Below, one piece after another: positions 19,049-64,000 of a stretch of DNA of 64,000 bases. The notes beneath the pieces are model-generated. The model made no database searches. It worked only from the letters and a program-made list of their open reading frames with translations, and was not told where the DNA came from. Every line of letters begins with the position of its first letter. Position 1 is the stretch's first letter. Origin of the DNA: Achromobacter aloeverae (GTDB lineage: Bacteria > Pseudomonadota > Gammaproteobacteria > Burkholderiales > Burkholderiaceae_B); the NCBI RefSeq assembly GCF_004121055.1, contig NZ_PYAL01000006.1, positions 310,001 to 374,000 on the forward strand, in the 5' to 3' direction. The position numbers and the translations under genes were made by a program.

Positions 19049-19055
19049 GCCGGCG

Positions 19056-19790
<735 letters not shown>

Positions 19791-30467: not shown

Positions 30468-30472
30468 CGGCA

Positions 30473-39532: not shown

Positions 39533-40516
39533 TCATCCCGTCACTTCGTCCAGCACCCGGTTCCAGTCGTCGATGAAACGCGGCATGCCGAAGCGTTCCA
39601 GGGCGGTCCTGCGCCCGGCCTCGCCCCATTGCCGCGCCAGGGCCGGCTCTTCGAGCAACTGGCGCATGCAGTCGACCAGCAACCGGCGGTCGGTGTGGAC
39701 AAAGCCGTTCACGCCGTTGACGATGACGGTGGGCAGTTCCGTGGCCGCCACGCCCACCACCGGCACGCCTATCAACATCGCTTCGACCAGCGCCAGGCCC
39801 AGGCTGGTGTAGCGGATGGGCGTGTAGAAGAAGCGATAGCTCGCCACCCGGCGCGCGACTTCCAGGTTGGGCAGCTCGCCCAGCCCGCCCAGCGCCTCCG
39901 ATTGCATGCCGATCAGGTCCAGCGGAACCTGCTCGCGCGTCCACTGGAAGAGATCCGCGCCCATGCGCCGCCCGCGTTGCGCGAGGCCGTTGATCACCGT
40001 AATGCCGCGCGCCTGCTCTCCGGTGTGGACCAGTCCCGCTTGCACCGGCACGCCGTGCTCGATGACGCGGGTGGGCATACCCGCGGCATCCCAGGCCAGG
40101 TCGTTGTAGTGCGTGACGTGGACCAGTACGCCCCGCTCATGCCGGAAACCGTGCGTGGTATTGGTCGGATGCGGCTGCGGCGGATCGTGTTCCAGGTAGA
40201 TGCTGGGAAGCGCGCGCTGCAGCGGGGACAACAGGGTCAGGCGATCTTCTTCATACACCTGCCGCGATTGGTAGATGACGCAGTCGACGTCCTGCCCGGC
40301 AATCTCTTCGGCGGGGCATGCGGTGATGTTGGAGCCCCAGGGGATGCGGGGGCCCAGCGGCGAGTAGCCCGGAACCGTGCCGGGCTTGTACGGAATGACG
40401 AAGTCGTGCGGGATCCGCGTCAGGGAGTAAAGGTAGTTTCCGTGCACGTGCCAGGTGAGTATGCGCAGGCGGCGGCGCGGCGAACGCAGGTGCGTGGTCG
40501 GGGCTTGCAGTGTCAT
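39533..40516 (-). CDS. GT4-type glycosyltransferase
   Basis: A 327-residue glycosyltransferase with a GT-B-like C-terminal half. The donor-binding region reads YTPIRYTSLGLALVEAMLIGVPVVGVAATELPTVIVNGVNGFV, the E-x7-E type segment of GT4 enzymes. The N-terminal half has WHVHGNYLYSL and HVTHYND. It is the last gene of the glycan operon and starts with an ATGA overlap on galE. The sugar and acceptor are unknown. Similar small GT4 proteins add single residues to short glycans. Confidence 0.82.
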   Translation of the reverse strand: MTLQAPTTHLRSPRRRLRILTWHVHGNYLYSLTRIPHDFVIPYKPGTVPGYSPLGPRIPWGSNITACPAEEIAGQDVDCVIYQSRQVYEEDRLTLLSPLQRALPSIYLEHDPPQPHPTNTTHGFRHERGVLVHVTHYNDLAWDAAGMPTRVIEHGVPVQAGLVHTGEQARGITVINGLAQRGRRMGADLFQWTREQVPLDLIGMQSEALGGLGELPNLEVARRVASYRFFYTPIRYTSLGLALVEAMLIGVPVVGVAATELPTVIVNGVNGFVHTDRRLLVDCMRQLLEEPALARQWGEAGRRTALERFGMPRFIDDWNRVLDEVTG

Positions 40517-41556
40517 CGGCGAGGCTCCTTGTATCCATCCGGGTGGCTGGCCTGCCAGCGCCAGCCATCGCGGCACATCTGGTCCAGGCTCCGGGTGGCG
40601 CGCCAGCCCAGCTCCTGTTCCGCCAGGGCGACGTCCGCCCAGAGTTCGGCGACGTCGCCCGGGCGGCGTTGCGCCGTGACGTAGGGGATATGGGCATGGG
40701 CTTGCCGCTCGAAGGCGTCCAGCAATTCCATGACGGTGCTGCCCTGGCCCGTACCCAGGTTCAGCGCGCGCCAGCCGCCGCCGGGCCGGTCCCCGCACAG
40801 CGCCTTCACGTGGCCCAGTGCAAGGTCCGATACGTGCAGGTAGTCGCGCACCGCCGTGCCATCGCGGGTCGGATAGTCGCGGCCGAAGACGACGAGATGC
40901 GGGCGCAGGCCCGTCGCGACCTGCGCGATGCAGGGAAAGAGATTCGACGAGGGGGCGGCGGGCGCTTCGCCTATCCGTCCCGACGGATGCGCGCCCACGG
41001 GGTTGAAATAGCGCAGCACCGTGGCGCGGAAATCCGCGCGCGCGTTGCAGACGTCGGCCAGCATTTGCTCGACGGCGCGCTTGCTGTGTCCGTAGGGCGT
41101 GCAGGGGGACAGCGCCGCCGTCTCGCGGATGGGCAAGCGGGCAGGCGCGCCATAGACGGTGGCGGACGAACTGAAGACCAGGTGTCGTGCGTCGTAGGCC
41201 AGCATCGCCCGCACCAGGTTCGTGCTGCCATGCAGGTTGACGTCGTAATACTGGAGCGGCGCCGCCATGGATTCCGGCACGGATTTCATGCCGGCCAGGT
41301 GTATGACCTGGCGGATGGGGTCGCCGGCCCGCCGCCAGGTCTCGAATATCCGGCGCAAGGTGGCGGCCGAGCGTACGTCGCCACGCCAGAGCGGGATCTC
41401 CATGCCCGCGAGCAGGCCGGCTTGCGCCACGGCGGCGGCATTTCCCGTGGCGAGGTTGTCGAGGACGACGGGACGGTGCCCGGCCTTCGCCAGTTCGACC
41501 AGGATGTGGCTGCCGATATAGCCCGCGCCGCCCGTCACCAGTATGCGTTCGCTCAT
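40513..41556 (-). CDS. galE: UDP-glucose 4-epimerase
   Basis: A 347-residue extended-SDR epimerase. It has NAD motif TGGAGYIGSH, the family phrase VIHLAGMKSVPES, catalytic Ser in FSSSATVYG and Tyr/Lys in YGHSKRAVEQ. It also has the GalE block GRDYPTRDGTAVRDYLHVSDLA, and it closes with RRPGDVAELWAD. It should interconvert UDP-glucose and UDP-galactose (or the N-acetyl forms) to supply the glycan operon. It overlaps both neighbours by ATGA (41553-41556 and 40513-40516). Confidence 0.93.
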   Translation of the reverse strand: MSERILVTGGAGYIGSHILVELAKAGHRPVVLDNLATGNAAAVAQAGLLAGMEIPLWRGDVRSAATLRRIFETWRRAGDPIRQVIHLAGMKSVPESMAAPLQYYDVNLHGSTNLVRAMLAYDARHLVFSSSATVYGAPARLPIRETAALSPCTPYGHSKRAVEQMLADVCNARADFRATVLRYFNPVGAHPSGRIGEAPAAPSSNLFPCIAQVATGLRPHLVVFGRDYPTRDGTAVRDYLHVSDLALGHVKALCGDRPGGGWRALNLGTGQGSTVMELLDAFERQAHAHIPYVTAQRRPGDVAELWADVALAEQELGWRATRSLDQMCRDGWRWQASHPDGYKEPRR

Positions 41557-42563
41557 CGTCCATCTCCGTGCAGGCTGGGGCCGGCGGGCAGGCTGGTGCT
41601 TGCATTCGGGGCCGGTCCGTGGAGCCGGCGCCACATGGCCGCGACCGCGTCCGGCACGACGCGCCTCCGCGGCAACACCCAGGGCATGCCCAGCAGGGTC
41701 TCCCATACGGTGCGCACTCCTAGGCGCAGGCCGGTTTGGCCCGACAACCGCAGTTGCTGGACGGTTTCGCGCCAGGCGCAGGCGACCGGCAGGCGCAACC
41801 AGGCCACCCAGATGGCATTGCGGGCAAGCAGCCAGCCGCGCCGGCGTGCGTCGCGCGCGGCCGAGGGATAGTGATGGGTCGCCACTTCGTCGGCATACGC
41901 GATCCGCCATCCGACCGCGACGAGGTCCAGGCACAGCAGCGTTTCTTCCGCGCCCAGGAAGAAGCGGGGTTCGTAGCCGCCGGCATCCAGGAAGGCCGAC
42001 CGGCGCGCCACGCAGGCGCCGGCCATGAACCCGAGCAGGACCGGCCAGCGGTCGGCCACGCGGCCCAGCGGACTGCGCGCCATTTCCTCGCAAGTCGGAT
42101 CGACCCGCTGCGCCGCGCCGACGAGTACCTTGCCGCTGACGATGGCGAGGCCAGGATGGGCGTCCAGGATGTCCGCGGCGCGCGCCAGCGCACCGGGCGC
42201 CCAGCAGGTATCGTCGTCGCAGAAGGCGACATAGGGCGTCGCGCAAGCCTGCACGCCGACGTTGCGGGCCGCCGCGCCCATGTTGTGGTCCGTGCGCAGG
42301 ACCTGGATGCCGGGAAAGTGCCGCGCCAGCGCCGCGGCCGTGCCATCGGTGGAATGGTTGTCGACCACCACGATGGGGATATCCGCCTGCGTGCGCGCCA
42401 TGACGCGCAGGTTGGCGATGAGTTCTTCCCGACGGTTGTAGGTGAGGACGACGATCGCCACGCGCGGCCGAGGCGGGTCGGCCGAAGCCGTGGCCCCCGG
42501 CAGGGCTTGCGTCGTGGGCTGCCCGGTGGGGGCTGTCATGACCTCTGTCATCGCGTCTGTCAT
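41553..42563 (-). CDS. GT2-family glycosyltransferase
   Basis: A 336-residue GT-A fold enzyme. It has the start VAIVVLTYNRREELIANL (about 35-52), the nucleotide-sugar pocket VVVDNHSTDGT, and the DXD-like metal site in FCDDDTCWAPG. ARNVGVQA is also present. A 35-residue Ala/Thr-rich leader precedes the domain. The C-terminal half (about 230-300) has amphipathic helices suggesting membrane contact. It resembles rhamnosyl- or heptosyl-type GT2 enzymes, but the sugar cannot be assigned. It is coupled to its neighbours by ATGA overlaps at both ends. Confidence 0.88.
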   Translation of the reverse strand: MTDAMTEVMTAPTGQPTTQALPGATASADPPRPRVAIVVLTYNRREELIANLRVMARTQADIPIVVVDNHSTDGTAAALARHFPGIQVLRTDHNMGAAARNVGVQACATPYVAFCDDDTCWAPGALARAADILDAHPGLAIVSGKVLVGAAQRVDPTCEEMARSPLGRVADRWPVLLGFMAGACVARRSAFLDAGGYEPRFFLGAEETLLCLDLVAVGWRIAYADEVATHHYPSAARDARRRGWLLARNAIWVAWLRLPVACAWRETVQQLRLSGQTGLRLGVRTVWETLLGMPWVLPRRRVVPDAVAAMWRRLHGPAPNASTSLPAGPSLHGDGR

Positions 42564-43273
42564 GGGTTCCCTCCTGCCCGCTCCTCGTCGAGCTGCCAGT
42601 AGCGCTCGGCCGGCAGCGCCGCGCCATTGGCGTCGGCGCCGGCCAGGCCCATTTCGCCGAGCTGGCTTCGATAGTGGCGCAGGGCGCGTTCCTTTTCCGC
42701 CAGGTCTTCGCGGGTGGGGGCGTCCACTGCCAGCGGCGTCAACCGGCGCCCCAACGCATGCAGGCCGGCAAGCCGCTCCTGCAGCAGCCCCCGCTTGCGT
42801 GCATAGGGAAGGTCTTCATAGCAAAGCCAACGCCGCTGTGCGCCCCGATCGCGTGTCCGGGCGCGCAACGCCGCTTCGTGCGCCTGGAAATGATCCGAGT
42901 GATAGAGGCCCAGAGGAAGCAGCACCGTGTCCGGTCCGATTTCCATCAGCAACGCCAGGATGGCGGCAGCCAGGTCCTTCTCCGTGTGGGTGGGCCCGTA
43001 TTGCGCATCCAGGAAATCCAGCTGTCGCGCCACGGCGCCCAGCTGGCCCACCGCCGCCCGGTCTTCACGGCGCCGCGCCTGCATGGCCTGCCGGGCGGAT
43101 GCGAAGCCGCAGCGCCGGTCCCAGGGCGTCAGCGGCGGATCGCCCTCCGGTTCGCCGGCCAGCAAGGTGGCCGCGACCGCTTCGCCGCTGTGCCCCATCG
43201 CCCAGGCGCAACTGAGCACGGCATCGTCAAGATGCGGCGAAATCACGAGCAGGCGTCGGCTGAACGGGAGCAT
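42560..43273 (-). CDS. PIG-L family sugar N-deacetylase
   Basis: A 237-residue PIG-L (LmbE-like) enzyme. The zinc motif PHLDDAV is at about residues 14-20 and the third histidine lies in [16 protein letters not shown]. Family members remove acetyl groups from GlcNAc-linked inositol, lipids or antibiotics. In this operon it probably exposes an amine on an amino-sugar of the glycan. The ATG at 43273 follows a TGGAG site; a TTG at 43291 is an alternative. The start overlaps the UDP-glucuronate decarboxylase gene by 47 bases, and the end is an ATGA overlap. Confidence 0.87.
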
Positions 43274-44276
43274 CGATACGCTCCAGGCCAAGTTGACGGA
43301 AATAGGCGACGGTGCGACGCAAGCCGGTTTCCAGGTCGATACGCGGCTGCCAGCCCAGCGTGGACCGCGCCAGCGCGATATCGGGACAGCGTTGCGTCGG
43401 ATCGTCGACAGGCAGTTCCCGGAACTGGATGGGCGGAGCCTCGTCTTTTCCCACTTCGCGGAGCACGTGGCGGGCCAGCGTCAGCATGCTGATCTCTTGC
43501 GGGTTGCCCAGGTTGACGGGCCCCGTCACGGGCGCGGGACTGTTCATGAGCCGGACCAGGCCTTCGACCAGGTCGTCCACATAGCAGAAGGCGCGGGTCT
43601 GCCGTCCGTCGCCGTACAGCGTCAGCGGCTGGCCGCCCAGGGCCTGGACGATCAGGTTGGAGACCACGCGGCCGTCGCCGACCGCCATGTGCGGCCCATA
43701 GGTGTTGAAGATGCGGGCGATCTTGATGGACAGGCCATTCTGGCGTCCGTAGTCGAGGAACAGGGTTTCGGCGCAGCGCTTGCCTTCGTCATAGCAGGAC
43801 CGTGGCCCGACAGGGTTGACGTTGCCCCAGTAGTCCTCCCGTTGCGGATGCACGTGGGGATCCCCATAGACCTCGCTGGTCGATGCCTGCAGGATGCGGG
43901 CGCCTGTCCGCTGGGCGAGGTCCAGCAGCCGTATCGCGCCCTCGACGCAGCTGCGCAGGGTGTGCACGGGATCGATCTGGTAGTGCACGGGCGACGCGGG
44001 GCAGGCCAGGTTGTAGATCTGGTCGATGTCCCGCGCTTCATACGGCACGATCACGTCATGGCGCACCAGCGTGAAGCCCGGATGATTGCTCAATGCCGCG
44101 ATATTGCGCAAGGAGCCGGTGCGCAGGCTGTCCAGGCAGATCACCTCGTGGCCTTCGCGCAGAAGGCGGGCGCATAGATGCGACCCGATGAAACCGGCGC
44201 CGCCGGCGACCAGGATACGTTTCCCGCCATGTTTTCCGCCTTGCATCGGCGCAGGGGCGCGCATGTCCATCATCAT
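43227..44276 (-). CDS. UDP-glucuronate decarboxylase (UDP-xylose synthase) type
   Basis: A 349-residue extended SDR. It matches the UXS subgroup almost phrase by phrase: [20 protein letters not shown], then [34 protein letters not shown], and [20 protein letters not shown]. These phrases are shared with plant, animal and bacterial UDP-xylose synthases. It would convert UDP-glucuronate to UDP-xylose, implying a xylose (or derived pentose) in the product. Of three consecutive ATG codons the first (44276) forms an ATGA overlap with the upstream gene, so I chose it. Confidence 0.88.
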
Positions 44277-45397
44277 GATGTACTCCAGGTAACGGGTTGG
44301 GGCTTGGGGGCGTCGCAGATGCCCAGCTTGGCCTGGACCGCGGCCAGCACGTCCTCGACGCCGACGGCGGTGGCGCAGGGATGTCCGATCGGACATACCC
44401 GATGGGCGCAGGGCCGGCAAGGCAGGTCGTGGAAGAGCACCTTGTGGCGGGTGCGGTCGAGCGGCGCCCAGCGGGCGGCATCGCTGCCGCAGGCGATCAC
44501 CACGCTGGGCGCGCCCACGCCGGCGGCGATGTGCGACACGCCGGTGTCATTGCAGACCAGCAGGGCGCAGTCGCGCATCAGGGCCGCCAGCGCGCCCAGC
44601 TGCGTGCGTCCCGACAAGTCGACCGCGTCGGAACCCAAGGCGGCGCGGAGCGTGGCGGCAAGGGCCGCTTCGTCGGACGATCCTGTGATCGCCACGCGCC
44701 AGCCTTGCGCTTGCAGCGCGCGGCCCACGGCGGCGTATCGTTCGACCGGCCAGCGGCGCGACGGCAGGCGGGCGCCAGGGTGCATCAGGATGGTCTGCGC
44801 GGGCCGCAATCCCGCTTGTCGGGCCAGGGCCTGGCCGGCGATGCGATCCGCGGCGGTCAGCGGAAATTCGAGGTCGTGCGAGTCCACGCGCACGCCCAGG
44901 TGGTGCATGAGCGCGGTATAGCGCAGCGGCTCCGGCAGTCCGTCGGGCCACAACATGCGACAGCCCGCGCGCGCCTGGCAGGCGTCAGGCACGAAGCCGG
45001 CCCATCGCGTCGAGCCCAGTCCCTCGACGATGGCATTGGATTGCCGGCCGCTGCCGTGCAGCTGTATGGCGAGATCGAAATGGCGGGCGCGGGCGCGGGC
45101 ATAAAAGGCCGGGAGTTCATCCTCCCGCGCCGCCTGCTCGGGGAACGCGGCGATGCCGGGGAACACCATCAGTTCGTCCACATAGTCGCCGAAGCGCTCG
45201 ACGAAGGGCGCTGCATTGGGCAGCCCGACCAGCGTGACATGGGCGTCCGGATAGGCCTGCCGCAGCGCCCGCAGCGCCGGGACGCTGCACAGCAGGTCGC
45301 CCAGTTGCAGCGCGCGGAAGACGGCGATGGCGTGCGGCGACGCGGAGGCGCCGGCGATCGGGTCGGCCGGCGTGGCGGTGTCGATGACCGTGCTCAT
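44273..45397 (-). CDS. GT9 heptosyltransferase-like enzyme
   Basis: A 374-residue GT-B enzyme of family 9. Landmarks are [65 protein letters not shown] and FGP-like [14 protein letters not shown]-terminal cysteine motif ([16 protein letters not shown]) also occurs in the other GT9 of this operon and in LPS heptosyltransferases. It probably adds a heptose or related sugar. It is coupled to both neighbours by ATGA overlaps. Confidence 0.9.
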
Positions 45398-46386
45398 GGA
45401 AACCCCGCGCGGTAGGCGAGCGACCCGACGATGCGCCAATAGATGGACAGCGGCGGAATGGCGATGGACGTGATCAGGGTCTCGACCAGGTGCGGCAGGT
45501 CCTTGCGCGTGGGGCGTATGCGGCGCAGGAAAAAGCGCGCGGTCAGGACCAGCCAGCCAAGCCCGGCGGCGACGGCGAGGCCCCGCTGGCCGGCGGCCAG
45601 CGCCAGCACGACGACGGCCAGCAGGGCGCAGATCGACAGATAGTGCCAGGGCGGCCCGCGGCGTATGCGCTCCCGGTACAGGCGAGGGTATTTCTTGTAC
45701 AGGAGCGTGTCGTAGCGGACCTTGCGCTGCGCCCGCAGCGCGACCGCGTAGGGCGCGGGCCGCAACGGGTGCTCCACGATCGCGGCGGGCGCGCGCTCGA
45801 TGTCGTAGCCGCCTTCCAGCAGGGCGAACTGCAGGTCGGAGTCCTCCCGCCAGGCCATGCCATAGCGCGTATCGAAGCCGCCCACCGCATCCAGCGCGGC
45901 GCGGCGGACCAGGCAATTGGCGGTCGCGAACTCGGCCTCCTGCAGGTGGCTGGCGTCGAGCTCGTAGTCGCTGGGATTGGGCGGGATGGGCATGACGATG
46001 GCGCCGGCCACCGCGTCTACGCCCGGCCGCATCGCGGCGAGGCCCGCGGCCAGCCAGTCCGGCCGCGGCACGGTGTCGTCGTCGGTGAAGGCGATGATGG
46101 GCGCCTGCGTGGCGCGCCAGCCGGCGTTGCGCGCGCCGGCGGGGCCCTGCGTGGCGGTCACCGGCAGGTAGGCCAGCGCGGGCGCGCCCGGGCGCCGGGC
46201 GTGGCGCAGGACGGTTTCCCGCATCACTTCGTCCGGCCCATCGTCGCAGACGATGATTTCGTATTGGGACGAGGGCAGGGTTTGCGCGCACAAGGCGCCC
46301 AGGCAGCGGTCGAGCAGGTCGGCGCGCCGGTAGGTGGGCACGACCACCGCGACGACGGGGGAGGACGGAGGGGTCGCTTGCCTCAT
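45394..46386 (-). CDS. Membrane-bound GT2-family glycosyltransferase
   Basis: A 330-residue GT-A enzyme. It has VAVVVPTYRRADLLDRCLGAL, IIVCDDGPDE, ARNAGW, and the metal site FTDDDTVPRPDW. An acceptor region reads GMAWREDSDLQFALLEGG. Two hydrophobic helices near the C-terminus (about 247-283, LSICALLAVVVLALAAG) should hold it in the membrane. It acts in the glycan operon and overlaps the carbamoyltransferase gene by ATGA. The donor sugar is unknown. Confidence 0.9.
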   Translation of the reverse strand: MRQATPPSSPVVAVVVPTYRRADLLDRCLGALCAQTLPSSQYEIIVCDDGPDEVMRETVLRHARRPGAPALAYLPVTATQGPAGARNAGWRATQAPIIAFTDDDTVPRPDWLAAGLAAMRPGVDAVAGAIVMPIPPNPSDYELDASHLQEAEFATANCLVRRAALDAVGGFDTRYGMAWREDSDLQFALLEGGYDIERAPAAIVEHPLRPAPYAVALRAQRKVRYDTLLYKKYPRLYRERIRRGPPWHYLSICALLAVVVLALAAGQRGLAVAAGLGWLVLTARFFLRRIRPTRKDLPHLVETLITSIAIPPLSIYWRIVGSLAYRAGFP

Positions 46387-48128
46387 TCCACGCCCTCCTT
46401 GTAAAGGAAGAAGGACCCGATGGACAGGGCGTCCAGCGGCGACGTCCAGAAGCATTCGATCGCGTCGCGCGGGGTGCAGACGATGGGCTCGCCACGGGTA
46501 TTGAAGGACGTGTTGACCAGGACCGGTATGCCGGTCAGGTCCTCGAATGCGACGAGCAGGTCGTGGTAGCGCGGGTTCTGGTCGCGGCGTACGGTTTGCA
46601 CGCGTGCGGTGCCGTCGACATGGCGCACCGCGGGTATGCGTTCGGCCGCGTGGGGCAGTACGTCGTAGACGAACAGCATGAACGGCGCGCGCAGCGGAAC
46701 GTGGCCGCGGGCGTCGAACCATTCGTGCGCCTTGCTCTCCAGCACCACCGGCGCCACCGGCCGGAAATCCTCGCGGTCCTTCAGTTCGTTCAGGCGTTCC
46801 TGCATCTGGGCGTGGATGGGCGAGGCAAGGATGGAGCGCGCGCCCAGCGCGCGGGGCCCAAACTCCATGCCGCCCTGGAACCAGCCTATGATCCTGTCGC
46901 CGGCCAGCAGGCGGGCGGCCTCCCGGGCCACGTCGTCCACGCGCCGGTAGGGCAGGCGGGCGCGGCGCAGGAAAGCCTCGATTTCGTCGTCGCAATAGGC
47001 GGGCCCCAGGTAGGCATGCGTCATCTCCCAGCGCCGATCGCGATTCCCCCGTTCCGCGTAGTCCAGCCACAACGCCGCGCCCAGCGCCGTGCCGGCGTCG
47101 CCGGCGGCGGGCTGCACCCATATATCGTCGTAGATGCCCAGCGCATCCAGCCTGGCGTTCATCACGCAGTTCAGCGCCACGCCGCCGGCCAGAACCAGGT
47201 TGGGCGCCCCGCTGGCCTTGCGCAGCCAGCGCGCCATGCCGCAGACGGTCTCTTCCAGCGTTTCCTGTAACGAACGCGCGATATCGTAATGGCGCTGTTC
47301 GAGCGGCCCGCCGCGCTCGCGGGCGGGACCGAATTTTTCCACGAGGTCGACCGGCTCGATACGATAGCCGCCGTCGTTGTCGGTACGGACGATGTCTCGC
47401 AGCGCGTCGCGGAAAGTGGGCTGGCCATACGATGCCAGCGCCATGACCTTGTACTCGTCCGACGAGCGCAGGAAGCCCAGGTACTGCGTGAAGTCCTCGT
47501 ACAGCAGGCCCAGCGAATGGGGCATCTCGACCTGCTTCAGCCGCTGGAAGATGCCGTCACGGAAGACGCCATGGCTGGTGGTGACACGTTCGCCGCGTCC
47601 GTCCAGCGACAGCACCGCCGTCTCCTGGAAGGGGGATGCCAGGTAGGCGCTGGCCTCGTGCGCGGCATGGTGCTCGACGAAGCGCCAGCCCGCGCGGACC
47701 TGCGCGTGGGTGGCATCGCGCCAGCGCGCCCGCAGGTGGTGCGGCACGCCGTCGACCAGTTGCCGCGGCGCGTTGGCGATATAGGACAGGAACAGCGCCT
47801 CCCAAGGCGAGTGGCCCGGGTCGACGCGCGGCGCCGCGGAGGGTTCCAGCGGCAGGGTCATGCTGTCGGGCAGGCGGCCTCCCGGCACGAGCAGGCGCGG
47901 ATCGAAGGCATAGGCGTAGCGGTCGACCTGGGCCAGCGTGATGCCGGCGCGCGCCAGGCAGTCATCGATCGCGTGATAAGGCAGCTGCCACGTCGAGAAC
48001 GGTACAGGCCGCTTGCCGTGCTTGACGTGCGTGTAGCGTTCCTCCTCGGAGGCCGCCAACAGGATGCCGTCCTGTACCAGGGCGGCGGAACAATCGTGGA
48101 ATGCGGCGTTGATGCCTAGCGTATACAT
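46383..48128 (-). CDS. NodU/CmcH-type O-carbamoyltransferase
   Basis: A 581-residue carbamoyltransferase. The N-terminal Kae1-like domain has LGINAAFHDCSAALVQDG, SEEERYTHVKHGK, and the metal-binding HHAAHEASAYLASPF. Further landmarks are SLDGRGERVT, LAGGVALNCVMNA, and the YrdC-like C-terminal domain with GWFQGGMEFGPRALGARSILA and VNTSFNTRGEPIV. Relatives carbamoylate Nod factors (NodU), cephamycin and other sugars or natural products, using carbamoyl phosphate and ATP. It marks the operon product as carbamoylated. It is 15 bases downstream of the upstream GT9 gene. Confidence 0.93.
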   Translation of the reverse strand: MYTLGINAAFHDCSAALVQDGILLAASEEERYTHVKHGKRPVPFSTWQLPYHAIDDCLARAGITLAQVDRYAYAFDPRLLVPGGRLPDSMTLPLEPSAAPRVDPGHSPWEALFLSYIANAPRQLVDGVPHHLRARWRDATHAQVRAGWRFVEHHAAHEASAYLASPFQETAVLSLDGRGERVTTSHGVFRDGIFQRLKQVEMPHSLGLLYEDFTQYLGFLRSSDEYKVMALASYGQPTFRDALRDIVRTDNDGGYRIEPVDLVEKFGPARERGGPLEQRHYDIARSLQETLEETVCGMARWLRKASGAPNLVLAGGVALNCVMNARLDALGIYDDIWVQPAAGDAGTALGAALWLDYAERGNRDRRWEMTHAYLGPAYCDDEIEAFLRRARLPYRRVDDVAREAARLLAGDRIIGWFQGGMEFGPRALGARSILASPIHAQMQERLNELKDREDFRPVAPVVLESKAHEWFDARGHVPLRAPFMLFVYDVLPHAAERIPAVRHVDGTARVQTVRRDQNPRYHDLLVAFEDLTGIPVLVNTSFNTRGEPIVCTPRDAIECFWTSPLDALSIGSFFLYKEGVE

Positions 48129-48143
48129 GGTGACCTCGACGAT

Positions 48144-49340
48144 TCACGGCAGGAGGAAACGGGGCGACGGGCCGGCGACGGCGCCGTGCGCCACCGGAAC
48201 GACAGGAATGGCGGGAATGGCCGGCGACAGTCGGGCGGGCGGGGCCCCCGGGCTGGCCGGCCGCGCGGTATCCAGCAGCGCCTCGGCTGCCGCGATGACT
48301 TCGGCCGGCGTCACGGAGGCCAGGCAGGCGTGGTGCCCCTCCGGGCAGATGCTGCGGTAGCAGTACTTGCACGGCACATCGTGATAGAGGACGCGGTGCG
48401 GCACCTCCCACGGCGTGTGCTGGGGATTGGTGAGTGCGTACAGGACAGCCACGGGCGTACCCAGCGCGGCCGCCATGTGGACGGGGCCGCTGTTGTTGGA
48501 GATCAGCAGGGCCGCGTCGTCGATCAATGCCGCCATCTCCCCCAGGCTCAGTGCGCCGGCCAGGTCGACGGCGGCCTTGCCGGCCTCCCGCGCAATGCCG
48601 GCCACCAGCGCCTTTTCCTCGGAGGATCCCGTGAGCAGGACGGGCCCGTGCCGGTGCCCGAGATGCGCGATGACCTCCGCGTACTGCGCCGCGGGGTAGC
48701 GGCGCGATGGCGCGGTGGCACCGCAGTGCACGACGATACGGCGACTGGCGGCCGGGACGCCGAGAGCGTCCAGCTTGCGGCGCAGGCGCCGGCGGTCACC
48801 CGGCGGCACCGACAGGGAAAGGCGGGCATGGCCCGGCCGGCAGCCGACGTGGGCGACCAGGTCCAGCTGCCGTTGCGCCTCGTGGCGCAGCCGCGAGTCG
48901 GGTTCGGTTTCCGGAACCCAGTCGCTCAGCAGGTGATAGGGATTTTCCCGGCAGTGCGCCAGCACCCGGGGTATTCCGGCCAGATGGCAGGCCAACGCGG
49001 CCGGCAGCGAGCTTTGGCTGTAGACCGTGAAGATCACGGCGGCATCGTAGGCGCCGTCGCGCAGGGCCTCGACCATGGACAGCGTGTCGTCCGGCCTTGC
49101 GCAGGGGACCTTCATCCATGGCACGCGGGCGACCACCGTATGGTCGATCTCCGGCACCATGCGGGAGATGGCCGCGCCGGAAGGCGAGCACCAGAGCCCG
49201 ATGCGCCGCTCCGGCGCGGCGTCGCGCAGCGCGCGGATGGCGGGCGTGGTCATCAGCACGTCGCCCATATTGTCCAGGCGCACGCAAAGCACGCGGCGGG
49301 CATCGCGCCAGGCGTCGTCGGATAGTCGGCTGTCCTTCAT
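48144..49340 (-). CDS. GT9 heptosyltransferase-like enzyme
   Basis: A 398-residue GT9 enzyme. It has LCVRLDNMGDVLMTTPAIRALRD, VVHCGATAPSRRYPAAQYAEV, LISNNSGPVHMAAALGTPVAVLY, and the Cys motif PCKYCYRSICPEGHHAC near residue 330. The last 35 residues are a Pro/Ala-rich tail. Together with the adjacent GmhB-like phosphatase it suggests transfer of a heptose. It overlaps the phosphatase gene by ATGA (49337-49340). Confidence 0.9.
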   Translation of the reverse strand: MKDSRLSDDAWRDARRVLCVRLDNMGDVLMTTPAIRALRDAAPERRIGLWCSPSGAAISRMVPEIDHTVVARVPWMKVPCARPDDTLSMVEALRDGAYDAAVIFTVYSQSSLPAALACHLAGIPRVLAHCRENPYHLLSDWVPETEPDSRLRHEAQRQLDLVAHVGCRPGHARLSLSVPPGDRRRLRRKLDALGVPAASRRIVVHCGATAPSRRYPAAQYAEVIAHLGHRHGPVLLTGSSEEKALVAGIAREAGKAAVDLAGALSLGEMAALIDDAALLISNNSGPVHMAAALGTPVAVLYALTNPQHTPWEVPHRVLYHDVPCKYCYRSICPEGHHACLASVTPAEVIAAAEALLDTARPASPGAPPARLSPAIPAIPVVPVAHGAVAGPSPRFLLP

Positions 49341-49948
49341 GCGGCCTCCGGCATGCCGGGCGCGGCGCGCTCGGCCGCATTGTCGTCGAGCCGCGCGCGC
49401 TGCTCGATGGCGCGGGCAGCGGCATCGAAATCGGTAACGCACAGCGTAGGCCGGCGCAAGGGGCCATCCAGCCATTCCGTCTCGTTGCCATTGTGGACCA
49501 GCACGGTGCGGCAATCCGCGCGGGCGCCCGCCTCGACGTCGTCGAGGATATCGCCCACCATCCACGAACGTGCCAGGTCGATGCCGTGCTCGGCCGCGGC
49601 CCGCAACAGCAGGCCAGGCGCGGGCTTGCGGCAGGTGCAGGGCTCGAACCCGGGGTAGCCGGCAGGGCGGTGCGGACAGCAGTACATCGCCGTCAGCGTC
49701 GCCCCGGCATCCCTGAACATGACGGCCAGCCGGCGACGCACCGCTTCCAGCGCGTCGATATCGAACAGCCCGAAGGCGACGCCGGGCTGGTTGCTGACGA
49801 CGACCAGGGGCCAGCCCAGCCGGGCCAGCCGGCGCAACCCTTCCTCGACCCCATGCTCGAAGCGCATGCGGTCCGGGTTGACGTTGTAGGGCACGTCGCA
49901 AAGCAGCGTGCCGTCCTTGTCCAGGAAAATGCCGGGCGTCAGGGCCAT
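49337..49948 (-). CDS. gmhB: HAD-IIIA phosphatase, D,D-heptose bisphosphatase (GmhB) type
   Basis: A 203-residue HAD phosphatase. The catalytic aspartates are in FLDKDGTLL; motif II is VVSNQPGVA. The zinc loop has CPHRPAGYPGFEPCTCRKP (C-x-H ... C-x-C), and motif III/IV is MVGDILDDVEAG. GmhB removes the 7-phosphate (or anomeric equivalent) in the ADP- or GDP-heptose pathway, consistent with the two GT9 enzymes. Kinase and isomerase partners (HldE, GmhA) are not in the window and may be encoded elsewhere. Start 49948 overlaps the SDR gene by 10 bases. Confidence 0.87.
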   Translation of the reverse strand: MALTPGIFLDKDGTLLCDVPYNVNPDRMRFEHGVEEGLRRLARLGWPLVVVSNQPGVAFGLFDIDALEAVRRRLAVMFRDAGATLTAMYCCPHRPAGYPGFEPCTCRKPAPGLLLRAAAEHGIDLARSWMVGDILDDVEAGARADCRTVLVHNGNETEWLDGPLRRPTLCVTDFDAAARAIEQRARLDDNAAERAAPGMPEAA

Positions 49949-50667
49949 GACGTCTCCTTCATCGGCAGCACCATGATCTCCGGGATCACCGTGGCCTCGG
50001 GCTGGGTCAGTAGGAAGCGCACGGCATGGGCGACGTTGGCGGGCTCCTGCAGCGTCTCGGGGTCGATGTCGGGGAAGCGGTCCAGCAGGAAAGGCGTGCG
50101 CATGCCGCCCGCGATCAGCGCGGATACCTTGATGCCGCGCGGTCGCAACTCCGCATGCAAGGCATGCGACAGTCCCAGCAGTCCCCATTTGCTCGCATGG
50201 TAGGCCGACGCATTGGGCCATGCCCGGCGCGCCGCCGTCGAGGCGATGTTGACGATGTGGCCGCCGCTCTTCAGATGCGGGCAGGCCGCGCGCGACAGCA
50301 GGAACGGGCCGGTAAGGTTGGTGCGCAGCACCCGGTCCCAGTCGGCGACCTGCAGTTCCTGCACCGGCAGGGTGACGTCCACGCCCGCGTTGTTGATGAC
50401 GGCGTCGAGCTGGCCGTAGCGATCGACGGCCTGCGCGACGCAGCGCGCCACGCTGTCCGGATCGCCGACGTCGAGCTGCACCGCAAGCGCCTGTTCGGAG
50501 GACAGCGACCGGGCGCAGGCGCGGGCGCCTTCCAGGTCCAGGTCCGCCAGCACGATGCGGACGCCTTCCTCGGCGAGCATTTCGCAGATGGCCTTACCCA
50601 GGCCGCGGGCGCCGCCAGTAACCAGGATGACTCGGTCGCGCAAGGTGGAAGTGGTAGTGAGGGTCAT
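49939..50667 (-). CDS. Short-chain dehydrogenase of the glycan operon
   Basis: A 242-residue classical SDR. It has ILVTGGARGLGKAICEML, NNAG (VINNAGVDVTLP), Ser in IVNIASTAARRA, and Tyr/Lys in SAYHASKWGLLG. An aspartate at the end of strand two (VLADLDLEGARA) favours NAD. It could oxidise or reduce a sugar nucleotide or glycan hydroxyl. TTAAGGAGCC upstream gives a strong ribosome site. The tandem repeat 50691-50807 lies immediately before it. Confidence 0.9.
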   Translation of the reverse strand: MTLTTTSTLRDRVILVTGGARGLGKAICEMLAEEGVRIVLADLDLEGARACARSLSSEQALAVQLDVGDPDSVARCVAQAVDRYGQLDAVINNAGVDVTLPVQELQVADWDRVLRTNLTGPFLLSRAACPHLKSGGHIVNIASTAARRAWPNASAYHASKWGLLGLSHALHAELRPRGIKVSALIAGGMRTPFLLDRFPDIDPETLQEPANVAHAVRFLLTQPEATVIPEIMVLPMKETSWP

Positions 50668-50690: not shown

Positions 50691-50807
50691 ACGTTGAGCA
50701 GGGACGTTAGGCAAGGACGTTAGGCAAGGACGTTAAGCAGCGCCGTTAATCAGCGCCGTTGAGCAGCAACATTAAGCGGCGACATTAGGCAGAGCCGCTA
50801 GGCAGGT
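50691..50807. repeat. 13-base tandem repeat, nine copies, inside the glycan operon
   Basis: Nine consecutive 13-base units with no spacer, variants of ACGTTAGGCAAGG. The second and third units are identical and others differ by two to six bases, always keeping a GTTA/ATTA and a GGCA/AGCA core. The array starts 23 bases upstream of the SDR start and its last unit covers the stop codon of the GT4 gene. Read on the transcribed (minus) strand, each unit carries TAA or a near-stop in a different frame, because 13 is not a multiple of three. Confidence 0.9.
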
Positions 50808-52111
50808 ACGCGCTCGCGGCGCGCGGCAGGGGCACGCTCGCGAGCTGTGGACAAAGTGGCGTTGGTCGCGGAGGAGGGCACGAGGTCGGCATACACGGCC
50901 AGCAGTTGCTCGGCGACGTGGCGCCAGGTGAAACGGCGGCGGGCGCGGCGCAGGCCGGCCTCGCCCATGCGCCGCGCCAGCCCGCTGTCGCGCGCCAGTA
51001 CGGCAAGCTGGTCCGCCACTGCCGCCGGATTGCGGGTAGGAACCAGGAAGCCCGTTTCGCCATGCACCACCGAGTAGCGGATGCCTCCCGTATCGCTGCC
51101 TATCACCGGGCGGCCGCAAGCCATGGCTTCCAGCGGCGTAATTCCGAAGGGCTCGTACCAGGGCGTCGTCACGAAGACGTCGGCGGCCGAGTAGTAGGTG
51201 CGGAGCTTCGAGCGGTCGCGACGGCCGATGAACTCGACCTGGTCGGCCACGCCAGCCTCATGCGCAAGCTTGCGCAAGCGGCCGATCTCCGGCGTGAGCA
51301 CTTCGCAAGGGGTATCGCTGTTGCCGCCCACTACGCACAGGCGTGCGTGCACCCCGTGACGCTCGCGCAACCGGGCCACCGCCAGCACGACGTCCTCCAC
51401 GCCCTTGCGAGGAACCATGCGGCCCAGTTGCAGGATGGTGAACGCCTCGGCGGGCCAGCCCAGTTGCGCGCGTGCCGCCAGCCGGTCCTGGGGCGTCATT
51501 TCCTTGGGCTCGTAGCCGCAGGGGACGGTGGCCAGGCGCCGCGGATCGGCATGGTAAAGGTCGAGCAGGTCGCGCCTGTCCTGCGGGCACTCCGCGATGA
51601 TGCGGTCGGCGTGGCGCACGATATCCTCTTCGATATCGAAGCGGCTGTCGGGGAAGCGGTCGGCGTCGCCCTGGTATAGCCGCCGTACGCGTCCGAGCGC
51701 ATGGAAGGTCACCACCAACGGAATACCCAGCGACTGGGCGACCGGCTGCGCGGCCATGGCCGACATGAAGAAGTTGGCGTGCACCACGTCATAACCGTGC
51801 CCATGCAGCAGTTGACCGTGGAACCACTGGCGCAGGTAGCGGCTGAACTCTCCCATGTACGGCAGCAGCTCTTCCTTCGGCACCACGCGGGGGGGGCCGG
51901 CGGGGACGTGGACGATGCGCACGCCGGGGCGCCATTGCACGATGCGCGGCGCGAGCACGTCTTCCTGGCGCGTGAAGACATCGACATGGTGTCCGGCGCG
52001 CGCGCAGTATTCCGCGACTTTTCCGACATAGATGTTCTGGCCGCCGCTGTCCACGCCGCCCGCCATGGCCAGTGGGGAAGCGTGCTCGCTGATGAGGGCG
52101 ATCTTCAGCAT
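50798..52111 (-). CDS. GT4 glycosyltransferase of the MshA/sucrose-phosphate-synthase type
   Basis: A 437-residue GT-B enzyme. The N-terminus SEHASPLAMAGGVDSGGQNIYV is the family hallmark of MshA/SPS-like GT4 proteins, and the C-terminal site reads WYEPFGITPLEAMACGRPVIGSDTGGI with the E-x7-E pair. GRMVPRKGVEDVVLA is also typical. MshA transfers GlcNAc to inositol phosphate; here it is paired in the same operon with a PIG-L deacetylase, as MshA is with MshB. It is the first gene of the operon. The ATG at 52111 follows TGGAGA; longer in-frame starts lack homology. Confidence 0.9.
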   Translation of the reverse strand: MLKIALISEHASPLAMAGGVDSGGQNIYVGKVAEYCARAGHHVDVFTRQEDVLAPRIVQWRPGVRIVHVPAGPPRVVPKEELLPYMGEFSRYLRQWFHGQLLHGHGYDVVHANFFMSAMAAQPVAQSLGIPLVVTFHALGRVRRLYQGDADRFPDSRFDIEEDIVRHADRIIAECPQDRRDLLDLYHADPRRLATVPCGYEPKEMTPQDRLAARAQLGWPAEAFTILQLGRMVPRKGVEDVVLAVARLRERHGVHARLCVVGGNSDTPCEVLTPEIGRLRKLAHEAGVADQVEFIGRRDRSKLRTYYSAADVFVTTPWYEPFGITPLEAMACGRPVIGSDTGGIRYSVVHGETGFLVPTRNPAAVADQLAVLARDSGLARRMGEAGLRRARRRFTWRHVAEQLLAVYADLVPSSATNATLSTARERAPAARRERVPA

Positions 52112-52345
52112 GAGGGTCTCCAGGTGCGCGGCCATATCGACCGCTCGTTGCGCGCCGGACTTTGTGCGCGGACCTCCCTCACGGCAACGGGCGTGCCACC
52201 ACCCTTCTCGTAAAGCGCAAACGCGCTGCACACACCACGGTTCTCCTATGGAGAAGGCATGGATATTTTTCTTTGGTGTCCGTCCGCGCCGCCGCGGTCG
52301 GCGGCATTAGGGCCGGTATATTGATTTTCACGTCCCCATGAAAGC

Positions 52346-52375: not shown

Positions 52376-55126
52376 TTACTCAGCGTTGGCGCGAACCGGC
52401 TGTAAACGATGCGCGGTGGCGGCCAGCACCTGGGCCTGATGCACCAGATCATCGCCGACGGCGCCGCGTGGCACATGGGCCTGGTAGCCCGCGAGCAAGG
52501 CGCGCAGGCGGCCTTCGCGCGCGGCGGGGCTGGACACGGCAATCGCCGGCAGCCGGCCGGACAGCGGGATGCCGCGCTCGGTCTCGATGACGCGCAGCGC
52601 GCCGATCAAGGCATAGCCGTCCATATCCTCAAGCACCACGTCGGCCACCAGCACACTGGGCCACTCGGCGGGAACGTGCGTTCTGAACCAGTCGAGCAAG
52701 GCGTGACCGGATCCATACACGTCCACGCGCGCGCCGGCAGCGGAAAGGCGGTCCTTCAAATCCTCGCGTTCCGCCGCATTGCGCGCCGTCAAGGCGATAT
52801 GCAGCCCCTGCAACAGCCTGGGGCCGGCCAGCATGGGCGTGGAGGGAATGGCAGCCGTGTCCGGCGCCGTGCGTTGAGGTAGCTCCAGCCAATACGTGGC
52901 GCCGTAGCCGCCGGCCGGGCGTTGCACGCCGAAGGCGCCCCCCGCCTGGCGCACCTGCGCGGCCAGGCGGCCCGGATCGGGCGGCGCATGATCAGGCGCC
53001 AGCGGATGGCGGCGTTCATCGGGCGATTGCGCGGCCGCGTCGGCGGGCGCCAGCCGCCCGTCGGTGATGGCGATGCGCACCTTGCCGTCGGCAGGTTGCA
53101 GCCGGATCTCGATGCGGCCGTCCGGCGGCGTCACCGCCACGGCATTGGTCAGCAGTTCCCACAGGACGTGATGAACCAGGCTGGGATCGCCGGTCACGCG
53201 GCTGCCGTCTCCGCCCAGCTCGGTATAGAGGCGTATGCCTTTCTCTTCCATGGGACCGCGCACGATGTCGAGCAGGTTGGCCACCAGCGCGCCGAGATGG
53301 ATGGGTTGAGGCGGCAGGCGTGATTCGGCGGTGATCAATGCGGCCTCCTGGCGTTGCAGGTTCCACATCTGGTTGTAGATGCCGCCGGCCGCAAGCAGTT
53401 CGTCATGGGTACCGCGCTCCACCACGCGGCCCTGTTCGAGGACCAGGATGGTGTCGGCCCCGACGACGGTGGACAGGCGGTGGGCGATGACCAGCGTGGT
53501 GCGTCCGCGCGCGACGCGTTCCAGTTCGGCCTGGATCGCCCGCTCGGTGCGGGTATCCAGCGCGGACGTGGCCTCGTCGAAAACCAGGACCGACGGATTC
53601 TTCAGCAAGGCGCGGGCGATGGCGATGCGCTGCCGTTCGCCGCCGGACAGCTTGACGCCGCGTTCGCCCACCACGGTTTCGTACTGGGCCGGCAGGCTCT
53701 TGATGAAGTCGTGCACGCGCGCGCCGGCCGCGGCCTCGATGATTTCGGCCATCGATGCGCCGGGCCGGCCATAGCCGATGTTGTAGGCGATGGTCTCGTT
53801 GAAGAGTATGGTTTCCTGCGGCACGATGCCCAGCGCGGCGCGCAGGCTGGCATGTTCCACTTCACGCAGGTCCTGGCCGCCCAGCGTGATATGGCCGCTA
53901 TCGGGATCGTAGAAGCGGAACAACAGGCGGGCGAGGGTGGATTTTCCCGAACCACTGCCGCCCACCACCGCCACCGTGCTGCCGGCCGGAACCGCGAAGC
54001 TGACGCCGTGCAGGATTTGCCTGCCGGGCTCGTAGCTGAAGTCGACCTGTTCGAAGCGCAAGGGCCCACGCGGATCCCGCAGGACCCGCGCGGCGGAGGG
54101 CCCGCCGCCGGCGGGGGAGGAAACCTCGGAGGACTCGGTGGGCAAGGTCAATAGCTCGCAGGCGCGTTCGGCATTGACGGTGGCTTCGCGGGTCTGGCGA
54201 AAGACCATGCCCAGCGTATTGAGCGGCAGGCAGATCTGGATGATGTAGGCGTTGACCAGCACCAGGTCGCCCACGGTCAACTGTCCGCCCAGTACGTCCT
54301 GGCCGGCAAGCAGCATGACGGCGCCCACGCCCAGGGCGATGACGGCGCTCTGGCAAATATGCAGCGTGGACAGCGCTCGTTGGTTTTCCTCGCCGACGAG
54401 CGTCCACTCGTTCAGCGTTTCGCGCAGCCGGCGATCTTCGAGCGCCTCGTTGTTGAAATATTTGACGGTGTCGTGATTGAGCAAGCCGTCGATGAGGCGG
54501 CCGCCCGCGCGCGAGTCCAGCTCGTTCAACTGGCGCTGGTAGCGCGTGCGTCGCGCGGTCAGCAGGGACGTGATGGTGGCGTAGATGACGAATGTCGCCC
54601 CGATGATCCACGTGAAGCCGACGTTGTAGCCCAGGGCAAGGATGAGTACGACTGACACGATTTCAACGAGCGTGGGCAGTACCGTGAAGAGCGCGGTGCC
54701 CAGCAGGAAGTTCAAGCCGACCGTTCCCCGCTCGACATCGCGGGCCAGCGCGCCTGTCTGCCGTCCGGCATGGAAGCGCGCCCCCAGCTGGTGTAGATGG
54801 GCCGCCAGGCGCGCGTTGAAGTGCGCGACCGTGGTAAGCGCCACGCGGGCAAACACAAGGTCGCGCAGTTCCGTGACCAGCCCGCCCGAGAAGCGCAAGA
54901 CGGCATAGCCCAGCAAGAGGAAAACGGGCAGCACCGCGACGGCCGGCGCGCTGAGGTGATCGACGATGCGCTTGAGCACCCAGGGCACGGCCACCGTCAG
55001 CAGCTTGGCGACGACCAGGAGCGCCAATGCGGCGCCGACGCGGCGATGGTAGCGGTGCAGGGCTTCCCACAACAGTCGCAGGATTTCGCGGCGGGCGGCG
55101 CGCGATGCGATTGATCTTCTGGCCAT
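52376..55126 (-). CDS. ABC exporter fused to a kinase-type ATPase domain and a receiver-like domain
   Basis: A 916-residue protein of unusual design. Residues 30-320 form an ATM1/HMT1-type six-helix exporter domain (VKYFNNEALED, LTVGDLVLVNAYI). Residues 355-590 are the ABC ATPase: Walker A GGSGSGKS (389-396), signature LSGGE (493-497), Walker B VLVFDE, H-loop His549. Residues about 608-750 resemble a histidine-kinase ATPase domain: N box HHVLWELLTNAVAVTPPDGR, a weak ITDGR box, and GGYGATYWLELP. No H-box precedes it. Residues about 772-905 look like a receiver with Asp829 (VADVVLEDMDGY), but the acidic pair is missing and the Lys is replaced by Arg887. ABC exporters of this type are normally about 600 residues. 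It starts with GGAGGACCAAGG before ATG. Confidence 0.88.
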   Translation of the reverse strand: MARRSIASRAARREILRLLWEALHRYHRRVGAALALLVVAKLLTVAVPWVLKRIVDHLSAPAVAVLPVFLLLGYAVLRFSGGLVTELRDLVFARVALTTVAHFNARLAAHLHQLGARFHAGRQTGALARDVERGTVGLNFLLGTALFTVLPTLVEIVSVVLILALGYNVGFTWIIGATFVIYATITSLLTARRTRYQRQLNELDSRAGGRLIDGLLNHDTVKYFNNEALEDRRLRETLNEWTLVGEENQRALSTLHICQSAVIALGVGAVMLLAGQDVLGGQLTVGDLVLVNAYIIQICLPLNTLGMVFRQTREATVNAERACELLTLPTESSEVSSPAGGGPSAARVLRDPRGPLRFEQVDFSYEPGRQILHGVSFAVPAGSTVAVVGGSGSGKSTLARLLFRFYDPDSGHITLGGQDLREVEHASLRAALGIVPQETILFNETIAYNIGYGRPGASMAEIIEAAAGARVHDFIKSLPAQYETVVGERGVKLSGGERQRIAIARALLKNPSVLVFDEATSALDTRTERAIQAELERVARGRTTLVIAHRLSTVVGADTILVLEQGRVVERGTHDELLAAGGIYNQMWNLQRQEAALITAESRLPPQPIHLGALVANLLDIVRGPMEEKGIRLYTELGGDGSRVTGDPSLVHHVLWELLTNAVAVTPPDGRIEIRLQPADGKVRIAITDGRLAPADAAAQSPDERRHPLAPDHAPPDPGRLAAQVRQAGGAFGVQRPAGGYGATYWLELPQRTAPDTAAIPSTPMLAGPRLLQGLHIALTARNAAEREDLKDRLSAAGARVDVYGSGHALLDWFRTHVPAEWPSVLVADVVLEDMDGYALIGALRVIETERGIPLSGRLPAIAVSSPAAREGRLRALLAGYQAHVPRGAVGDDLVHQAQVLAATAHRLQPVRANAE

Positions 55127-63700: not shown

Positions 63701-64000
63701 TGCGGCGCGAAGAGCACGCGTTCGCGCAGTTGCTTCTTGACCCGGTAGTTCACCCCCTCGCGGGTAAAGAACTCCTGCAGCCTGGCCGGCGAGACATCGG
63801 TCTCGATGGCGCTGGGATAGACGCCGGCTCTTCCCATGGCCAGCGAAGTTTCGTCGATGTCCGTGGCGAACACCTGGATCTTCGGCGGCGTCTCCATCGC
63901 TTCGGCATGCGCGCAGAGCAGCATCGCCACGGAATAGGCTTCTTCTCCGCTGGAGCATCCGGCGACCCAGGTACGCAGGGGCGCGGGCGATTCCCCCTTG
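60795..64000 (-). pseudogene. CheB/CheR-type PAS hybrid histidine kinase, frameshifted; 5' end beyond window
   Basis: The visible part begins inside a CheR methyltransferase domain (WVAGCSSGEEAYSVAMLL, SCRNLLIYLDREVQ). A long coiled coil follows, of the SNEELQAINEELRSTTEELE type. Two PAS domains come next, then the H-box MSHELKHPLNLIQLNAELL. At 61803-61840 an exact 19-base tandem duplication shifts the frame, so the upstream frame runs about 100 codons into nonsense. In the shifted frame the kinase resumes at once (ARIIEDLLDIARAQTGK) with the ATPase domain (NLINNGIKFTPPGG, GLGIGLAVV) and a good receiver (ISDIGMPEMDGY). As read, kinase and receiver are cut off from the sensor. Confidence 0.85.
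61803..61840. repeat. Exact 19-base tandem duplication in the hybrid kinase gene
   Basis: Two identical copies of GCGCGCCTGGCTGCGCACG (61803-61821 and 61822-61840) are followed by a further 7 matching bases. Removing one copy restores one continuous reading frame through the H-box-to-ATPase junction (RAVRSQARIIEDLL). The duplication is therefore the cause of the frameshift. Confidence 0.93.

Follow-up and report, generated by a model that had tools for sequence, protein, structure and literature searches.

Introduction

Can transport itself be the output of a two-component system? The question is raised by one gene in a stretch of 64,000 nucleotides from Achromobacter aloeverae (contig NZ_PYAL01000006.1, positions 310,001 to 374,000; this whole stretch is called the window, and positions are counted from its first letter), in which an ATP-binding cassette (ABC) half-exporter of the ATM1 type is joined in frame to a kinase-like domain of the GHKL fold and a response-regulator receiver. 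Half-exporters of the ATM1 type act as dimers powered by their nucleotide-binding domains (NBDs). Receivers switch state upon phosphorylation of an Asp and usually act via DNA-binding or enzyme domains. The reading favoured here, which is given a probability of about 0.5, is that the gene belongs to a family of ABC half-exporters, conserved within Burkholderiales, with a cytoplasmic C-terminal response-regulator module, a built-in switch that would serve the glycan, or a glycan precursor, made by a neighbouring gene cassette. Searches of an open-access library, which set the scope of this statement (subscription papers and preprints lie outside it), listed no paper recognisable as dealing with an ABC exporter joined to a kinase-like or receiver domain. 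What appears to be new is an ATM1-like exporter bearing a new regulatory module, with gating by phosphorylation as a putative property.

Domain layout of the fused gene

The gene is read on the minus strand from an ATG at 55126 to a stop at 52376, through 916 uninterrupted codons. Its parts are as follows.

52376..55126, minus: fused gene for an ATM1-like ABC half-exporter, a pseudo-GHKL domain and a receiver, 916 amino acids
54230..55033, minus: ABC transmembrane domain, Pfam part (residues 32-299)
53351..54061, minus: ABC nucleotide-binding domain, about residues 356-592 (Pfam, motifs, model)
53318..53380, minus: helix 583-603, bridging the end of the NBD and the GHKL-like domain (model)
52874..53308, minus: pseudo-GHKL domain, about residues 607-751, without G1 or G2 box (Pfam, model, residues)
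52412..52807, minus: CheY-like receiver, about residues 774-905, acidic pair and Lys lost (Pfam, model, residues)
52640-52642, minus: codon of the receiver Asp829

An earlier note, made from the letters of this DNA, had proposed that a single frame joins a complete ATM1-type half-exporter to a kinase-like ATPase and a receiver-like module, and this layout is confirmed by Pfam and by AlphaFold2. ABC_membrane was found at residues 32-299 (E 3.4e-32), ABC_tran at residues 372-521 (E 2.8e-33) and HATPase_c at residues 646-695 (E 3e-6), the last barely exceeding its cut-off (28.1 bits, cut-off 26.4). The Response_reg match at residues 787-886 (E 5e-4, 20.6 bits) lies under its curated cut-off of 30.2, so that the domain search that the note had suggested succeeded for the membrane and ATPase domains and fell short for the receiver. 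Among the 207 matching NCBIfam models, the 25 listed all end by residue 601, and none of these reaches its curated cut-off.

The exporter part aligns over residues 13-604 with AtAtm3 (7n58, E 7e-151) and over residues 14-599 with NaAtm1 (4mrn, E 2e-147), and the closest solved sequences over the full half-transporter are Atm1 proteins. Its NBD carries a Walker A motif, the Q-loop Gln437, LSGGE, DEATSALD and His549, nearly all of these positions being invariant in 33 rows, and the claim that all ABC motifs are present was thus borne out by Pfam and the motif positions.

The tail was modelled with AlphaFold2 from 33 family sequences (residues 592-916; mean predicted local distance difference test score, pLDDT, 86.5; predicted template modelling score, pTM, 0.63). 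In the first part of the model, strands and helices succeed one another as in a GHKL domain, but the ATP-lid region is absent; the second is a complete (beta/alpha)5 receiver of five strands, the third of which ends at Asp829. Both a GHKL and a CheY-like fold are hence predicted in the tail, where the note had allowed that structure prediction might show neither. An alpha/beta sandwich like that of kinase catalytic domains is indicated by the model, by Foldseek and by the HATPase_c match just over its cut-off. In the full-length monomer model (mean pLDDT 80.5) one helix, 583-603, links the NBD end to the GHKL part, and the relative placement of the domains is unreliable at its pTM of 0.59.

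When the tail was compared with the PDB by Foldseek, the hybrid histidine kinase ShkA (6qrj) came out on top (E 7e-16, 309 columns), with a superposition root-mean-square deviation of 14.6, which means that the domains are differently arranged. CusS, ThkA, DivL and RetS followed, and the 49 matches listed after ShkA were mostly kinase cores. A search of solved structures with the sequence of the tail alone returned 7zp0 (CusS according to the Foldseek listing) at E 3e-6, DivL at E 2e-5 and RetS at E 0.007.

Distribution and origin of the fusion

In a set of 61 related genomes the fusion was found in 12, including the genome of the window, and in one of the 12 (G021) it is cut by a contig end. 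A scan of a named genome collection with a tail alignment gave 77 loci, in 34 of which the tail is in frame with an ABC exporter; the remaining 43 are mostly hybrid kinases and were used as controls. The 34 fused loci belong to Alcaligenaceae (Bordetella, Pusillimonas, Pollutimonas, Castellaniella, Candidimonas, Parapusillimonas, Eoetvoesiella, Pigmentiphaga), to other Burkholderiales (Ralstonia, Cupriavidus, Paraburkholderia, Roseateles, Pelomonas, Mitsuaria, Rubrivivax) and to metagenome-assembled genomes (MAGs) without a genus. Of 200 genomes sampled from the window's family, at least 35 have the fusion (32 by tail profile, plus G021, G529 and G548). Absences are approximate here and in the wider searches that follow, as the profile at E 1e-75 missed the true members G529 and G548 and few candidates were scored per genome. 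Among 150 genomes from the order, only the window's own and G005 match the tail beyond E 1e-100. Nine others match at E 1e-45 to 1e-66. In eight of these, the best ATM1-like match does not extend past residue 613, and the ninth (G177) has no such match at E 1e-100, which is why all nine tail matches are ascribed to kinases. No tail match at E 1e-70 besides the own genome was found in 299 genomes drawn from the phylum, and none at E 1e-30 in a plasmid collection searched with a Ralstonia tail.

In a tree of the ABC part, with 18 tail-less ATM1 proteins for comparison, all of them from genomes other than those with a fused gene, the 46 fused rows (a few of them identical) share one side of one branch with support of 100/100. 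A quicker tree that included ten tail-less paralogues from the fused-gene genomes still kept fused and tail-less proteins separate (Shimodaira-Hasegawa-like approximate likelihood ratio test, 90), although long branches are present. The tails behave likewise, with 33 fused tails forming one group against 41 kinases (100/100). A single fusion event would be the simplest reading of these trees.

The earlier note had reasoned that homologues stopping near residue 600 could expose the tail as read-through, and tail-less ATM1 proteins were found to lie outside the fused group. An artefact of assembly or read-through has next to no probability, as the same in-frame fusion recurs in dozens of separate assemblies and the ABC parts group together; it is refuted by this conservation, and no point in its favour was found.

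A second origin that was tried and rejected is a tail copied from the hybrid kinase gene that neighbours the fused gene, since the 33 tails group apart from that kinase and 40 others. Within its own genome, and leaving out the match to itself, the tail matches this kinase best (E 4e-13, the next being 6e-6). This large kinase lies on the minus strand at 60795-64000 of the window and shows, by eye, CheR-like, PAS, H-box, HATPase and receiver parts. Its gene is split into two frames by a break at 61803-61847, where a 19-bp unit is repeated 2.4 times, and the ATPase and receiver half, which gives the match to the tail, lies in another frame.

State of the pseudo-GHKL and receiver domains

The residues of 39 distinct fused tails were compared with those of 39 hybrid kinases as controls. 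The G1 pattern DxGxG occurs anywhere in the tail in 1/39 fused proteins vs 39/39 hybrid kinases, the G2 pattern in 0/39 vs 35/39 and the N-box Asn in 15/39 vs 39/39, while the H-box pattern is found in none of the 34 named fused proteins vs 38/39 kinases. Since the ATP-binding boxes are lost, neither ATP binding nor kinase activity can be expected of the tail in this family, judging by its residues. The kinase-like part of the window's protein had been described beforehand as having no H-box, a weak Asp-Gly (G1) box, an N box (Asn661) and an ending GGYGATYWLELP, all of which was verified, no G1 box standing at the expected place. The nucleotide sensing that had been proposed for it is unlikely, with DxGxG absent from 38/39 tails and G2 from 39/39.

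The GHKL part is thus kept though its ATP boxes are lost in essentially all members, which would suit a tail that acts as a docking platform, sensing the pump or its load and binding or titrating another sensor kinase, so that transport would inform signalling. The presence of DivL and RetS among the solved relatives of the tail argues in the same direction, as do the genes for sigma-54 and NtrC-type regulators beside the glycan cassette in one relative (L123), with the same clusters in two more (L124 and L125). The H-box pattern is, however, absent from 34/34 named fused proteins, and a pure platform would have no need of the catalytic residues of the receiver, which most members keep. We consider such a platform unlikely.

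The receiver residues are indeed widely conserved. The Asp is present in 39/39 fused tails and 39/39 hybrid kinases, the Ser/Thr in 39/39 tails (Ser865 in the window's protein), the acidic pair with both residues acidic in 37/39 tails, and the Lys in 37/39 tails vs 39/39 kinases; two later members (L130 and L131) have the pair, the Asp, the Thr and the Lys by eye. The receiver of the family therefore looks functional, as far as its residues tell. In the window's protein, Asp829 and Ser865 are retained, but the acidic pair is replaced by Ala781 and Arg782 and the Lys by Arg887. Among the 39 tails, the whole pair is lost only here (L012 is without the second residue only), and the Lys is lost here and in L009, which is from the same genus. 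The degenerate receiver described in the earlier note is therefore true of this protein and is not a trait of the family, and what holds of its degenerate two-component module is the two-component origin and the degraded kinase half.

Two explanations of this local loss can be weighed. Pseudo-receivers are described as common, as lacking key phosphotransfer residues and as activated in a way that is termed a mystery (PMC12632262); the window's receiver fits this description. Alternatively, in the window's species the tail could be a decaying remnant with its receiver under relaxed selection and the exporter functioning independently of it, which would be compatible with a receiver switch elsewhere in the family. 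When receiver identity was regressed on ABC identity over 33 rows (the window's protein and 32 relatives), the window's receiver was the strongest outlier, with a mean residual of -3.08 standard deviations (SD; the next was -1.13 SD), and its GHKL part was no outlier (-0.86 SD). This pattern agrees with decay of the receiver, as do the lost pair and Lys and the absence of the Lys in L009. The fully open frame, the retained Asp829 and Ser865, the good confidence of the tail model and the commonness reported for pseudo-receivers speak against decay, which we regard as quite unlikely.

Substrate pocket and cargo

PexA, an ATM1 relative of Rhodobacter, contacts glutathione through the conserved residues Arg212, Arg216, Asn275 and Arg329 (PMC6424863). 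These positions were mapped by spacing and by the AtAtm3 alignment, PexA itself not being aligned. By this mapping, the window's protein keeps Arg193 and Arg310 and departs from the four-residue glutathione contact of ATM1 exporters at two positions, with Gln197 in place of Arg and His256 in place of Asn. Across 46 fused rows, the first and last pocket Arg are kept in 46/46, the second Arg is replaced in 46/46 (Gln in 42, Glu in 3, Leu in 1), and the Asn has become His in 43 and is still Asn in 3. Tail-less ATM1 proteins keep all four residues in 28/28 cases, including 10 from genomes that also have a fused gene. Through the altered positions, the pocket points to a cargo of the fused exporters that differs from glutathione or is a modified form. 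The window's exporter would be ATM1-like by descent, with glutathione export as a putative activity at most.

The genome of the window is without a second exporter of ATM1 grade (next best match E 3e-88, 38% identity), and 10/12 fused-gene genomes of the 61-genome set also hold a tail-less ATM1 paralogue (E 1e-140 or better).

The glycan cassette and its genome-wide co-occurrence

In the window a cassette of glycan genes sits downstream of the fused gene on the same strand. Starts marked as mechanical were set mechanically.

50798..52231, minus: glycosyltransferase family 4 (mechanical start)
49939..50667, minus: short-chain dehydrogenase
49337..50221, minus: HAD phosphatase, which we take to be GmhB-like (mechanical start)
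48144..49901, minus: heptosyltransferase-type glycosyltransferase family 9 (mechanical start)
46383..48128, minus: carbamoyltransferase, the marker used for whole-genome searches
44273..46495, minus: second family 9 glycosyltransferase (mechanical start)
43227..44420, minus: NAD-dependent sugar epimerase/dehydratase
42560..43291, minus: PIG-L type deacetylase
41553..42563, minus: glycosyltransferase family 2
39533..41605, minus: glycosyltransferase group 1 (mechanical start)

When matches of 45% identity or more in flanks of up to 10 kb were counted as cassette genes, at least two were found at 24 of the 34 fused loci, one at 3 and none at 7; nine of the 12 queries were in frame, and those for the HAD phosphatase, the first family 9 glycosyltransferase and the epimerase were out of frame and are unreliable. 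Cassette genes flank three of the 43 control loci (L074, L086 and L111) and none of the other 40, and these three resemble contig-end or frame-broken pieces of a fused-type locus, with tail identities of 45-50%. The tie to glycan genes that had been proposed is thus supported by position (24/34) and by the co-occurrence given below; the large operon at whose head the note had placed the fused gene is putative.

Some of these loci deserve separate mention. In Ralstonia TCR112 (L111) the tail has no ABC part in the same open frame, possibly through a frame break, and L086, which is labelled as a Wolfebacteria MAG and has cassette genes beside a tail 50% identical to the query, may be misbinned. 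In three relatives (L123, L124 and L125) the cassette is located away from the exporter. At L123, which was scanned with Pfam, it is flanked by genes for a sigma-54 factor, NtrC-type regulators and a starch-synthase-like glycosyltransferase; L124 and L125 show these gene clusters as well.

Within the 61-genome set, the carbamoyltransferase (at least 64% identity) is present in exactly the 12 fusion genomes, other matches reaching at most 47%. In two of the genomes (G007 and G022) over 1.4 Mb of the same contig separate it from the fused gene, and it is part of an intact cassette there. In the 200-genome set it was found (62% identity or more) in 40 genomes, namely 35/35 with the fusion and 5 in which none was found. 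The cassette therefore does not strictly need the fused exporter.

A protein of about 170 amino acids shows a similar distribution, being present in exactly the same 12/61 genomes as the fusion and in 34/200 genomes, which comprise 32/35 with the fusion (not G495, G529 and G548) and two without it (G484 and G502). Its gene lies within the flanks of 23/34 fused loci, and in the genome of the window it is on a different contig from the fused gene.

G000:C5:101567-102052 (about 9568-10053 of L118): gene of the protein of about 170 amino acids in the genome of the window

The family of this protein has an invariant WDADY and a conserved VSGA..DEA stretch, and a Pfam search gave no convincing match (best QslA, E 0.022, and HbpS-like, E 0.046). 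In the genus of the window, three of six genomes (G002, G003 and G004) are without the fusion, the carbamoyltransferase and this protein at the thresholds used.

Genes for PRC-barrel, BON, DUF883, topoisomerase IB and hemerythrin proteins recur in some neighbourhoods. They would suit a general exporter for stress or thiol conjugates whose cargo is unrelated to the glycan, the association then reflecting shared regulation in a stress island. Such an exporter would be compatible with a receiver switch, and it is also favoured by the two pocket Arg and the Gln, noted as kept in 46/46. It is harder to reconcile with the change of two of the four glutathione-contact positions in nearly all fused members, where tail-less proteins keep them in 28/28, and with the carbamoyltransferase, the sole cassette gene searched genome-wide, which is present in 35/35 fused genomes even when distant. 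We consider this explanation possible but doubtful.

Proposed working of the exporter

If the receiver is a built-in switch, its working can be pictured as follows. The pseudo-GHKL domain would hang on the last NBD helix, much as a GHKL domain would on the phospho-acceptor helices of a kinase, and act as a spacer and a scaffold for the dimer. Phosphate for the receiver Asp would come from a separate histidine kinase or from acetyl phosphate, the phosphorylated receiver would shift its partner or its dimer state, and this shift would open or block ATP-driven cycling of the NBD pair, whereby export would follow a signal without new gene expression. The most likely cargo would be what the cassette makes, or a precursor of it, rather than glutathione. 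With the acidic pair and Lys lost, the switch of the window's species would probably be either independent of phosphorylation, as a pseudo-receiver that a partner protein reads, or fixed in one state. The earlier note had suggested that the tail gates transport of the glycan or a precursor; the genetic tie to the cassette that this implies is supported, and gating and cargo stay putative.

In its most specific form, this proposal describes a two-component system with transport as output, in which phosphorylation would gate export of a heptose/carbamoyl-type glycan or precursor, the protein of about 170 amino acids would be a partner, and the window's species would have been rewired to a pseudo-receiver. 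This form is tentative, and we hold it at clearly less than even odds.

Several observations weigh against a built-in switch that serves the cassette. Cassette genes are absent from the flanks of 7/34 fused loci, and 5/40 genomes with the carbamoyltransferase had no fusion found in them, two of these being 86% and 70% complete; moreover, the genomes are related, so that the co-occurrence counts are not independent trials. The window's own receiver, devoid of acidic pair and Lys, is the strongest outlier, and the monomer model does not place the domains reliably. No kinase emerged as a cognate partner, the one encoded near the fused gene being frame-broken and grouping outside the tails, and, to our knowledge, ATM1-like pumps have not been described as glycan exporters.

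If the favoured reading is correct, a sensor kinase could switch export directly via a receiver built into an ABC exporter, and a phospho-mimic would then allow gating of the NBDs to be probed. Through this family, an ATM1-like pump whose pocket is altered is linked to a defined glycan cassette and to an undescribed small protein. The window's species is a natural case of a receiver that has become a pseudo-receiver, and if the rewiring is real, it would allow a before-and-after comparison.

Other features of the window

17678-19138, minus: HAMP histidine kinase
21167-24334, minus: autotransporter
26685-30497, minus: TonB receptor, with an adjoining FecR-type regulator

Comparison with known systems

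The ATM1/ABCB7-type exporters (AtAtm3 7n58, NaAtm1 4mrn, PexA) have the same half-exporter layout and ABC motifs as the fused protein, but the tail-less relatives end near residue 600, and the fused proteins form a separate tree group and differ at 2/4 of the glutathione-contact positions taken from PexA. Hybrid histidine kinases (ShkA and the controls) share the order of the tail, GHKL then receiver, ShkA being the best structural match, whereas the fused protein has neither the H-box pattern nor the ATP boxes, and an ABC exporter replaces the sensor and the H-box helices. In sequence and fold, the tail resembles the kinase cores of DivL and RetS, which reportedly bind or titrate other sensor kinases. 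In the fused protein, in contrast, the core is joined to a pump and the ATP-lid region is gone too. An ABC transporter is also combined with kinase machinery in BceAB-BceS (8g3a, among the Foldseek matches); there, unlike in the fused protein, the kinase is said to be separate and active, with the transporter serving as sensor.

EpsW of Myxococcus, a single-domain response regulator, acts directly and post-translationally on EpsZ, a polysaccharide membrane protein (PMC12802240). EpsW differs in being a separate protein that acts on a phosphoglycosyl transferase, with no fusion to an exporter; as a receiver that directly controls a polysaccharide membrane protein, it nonetheless offers a precedent for the receiver fused to the exporter described here.

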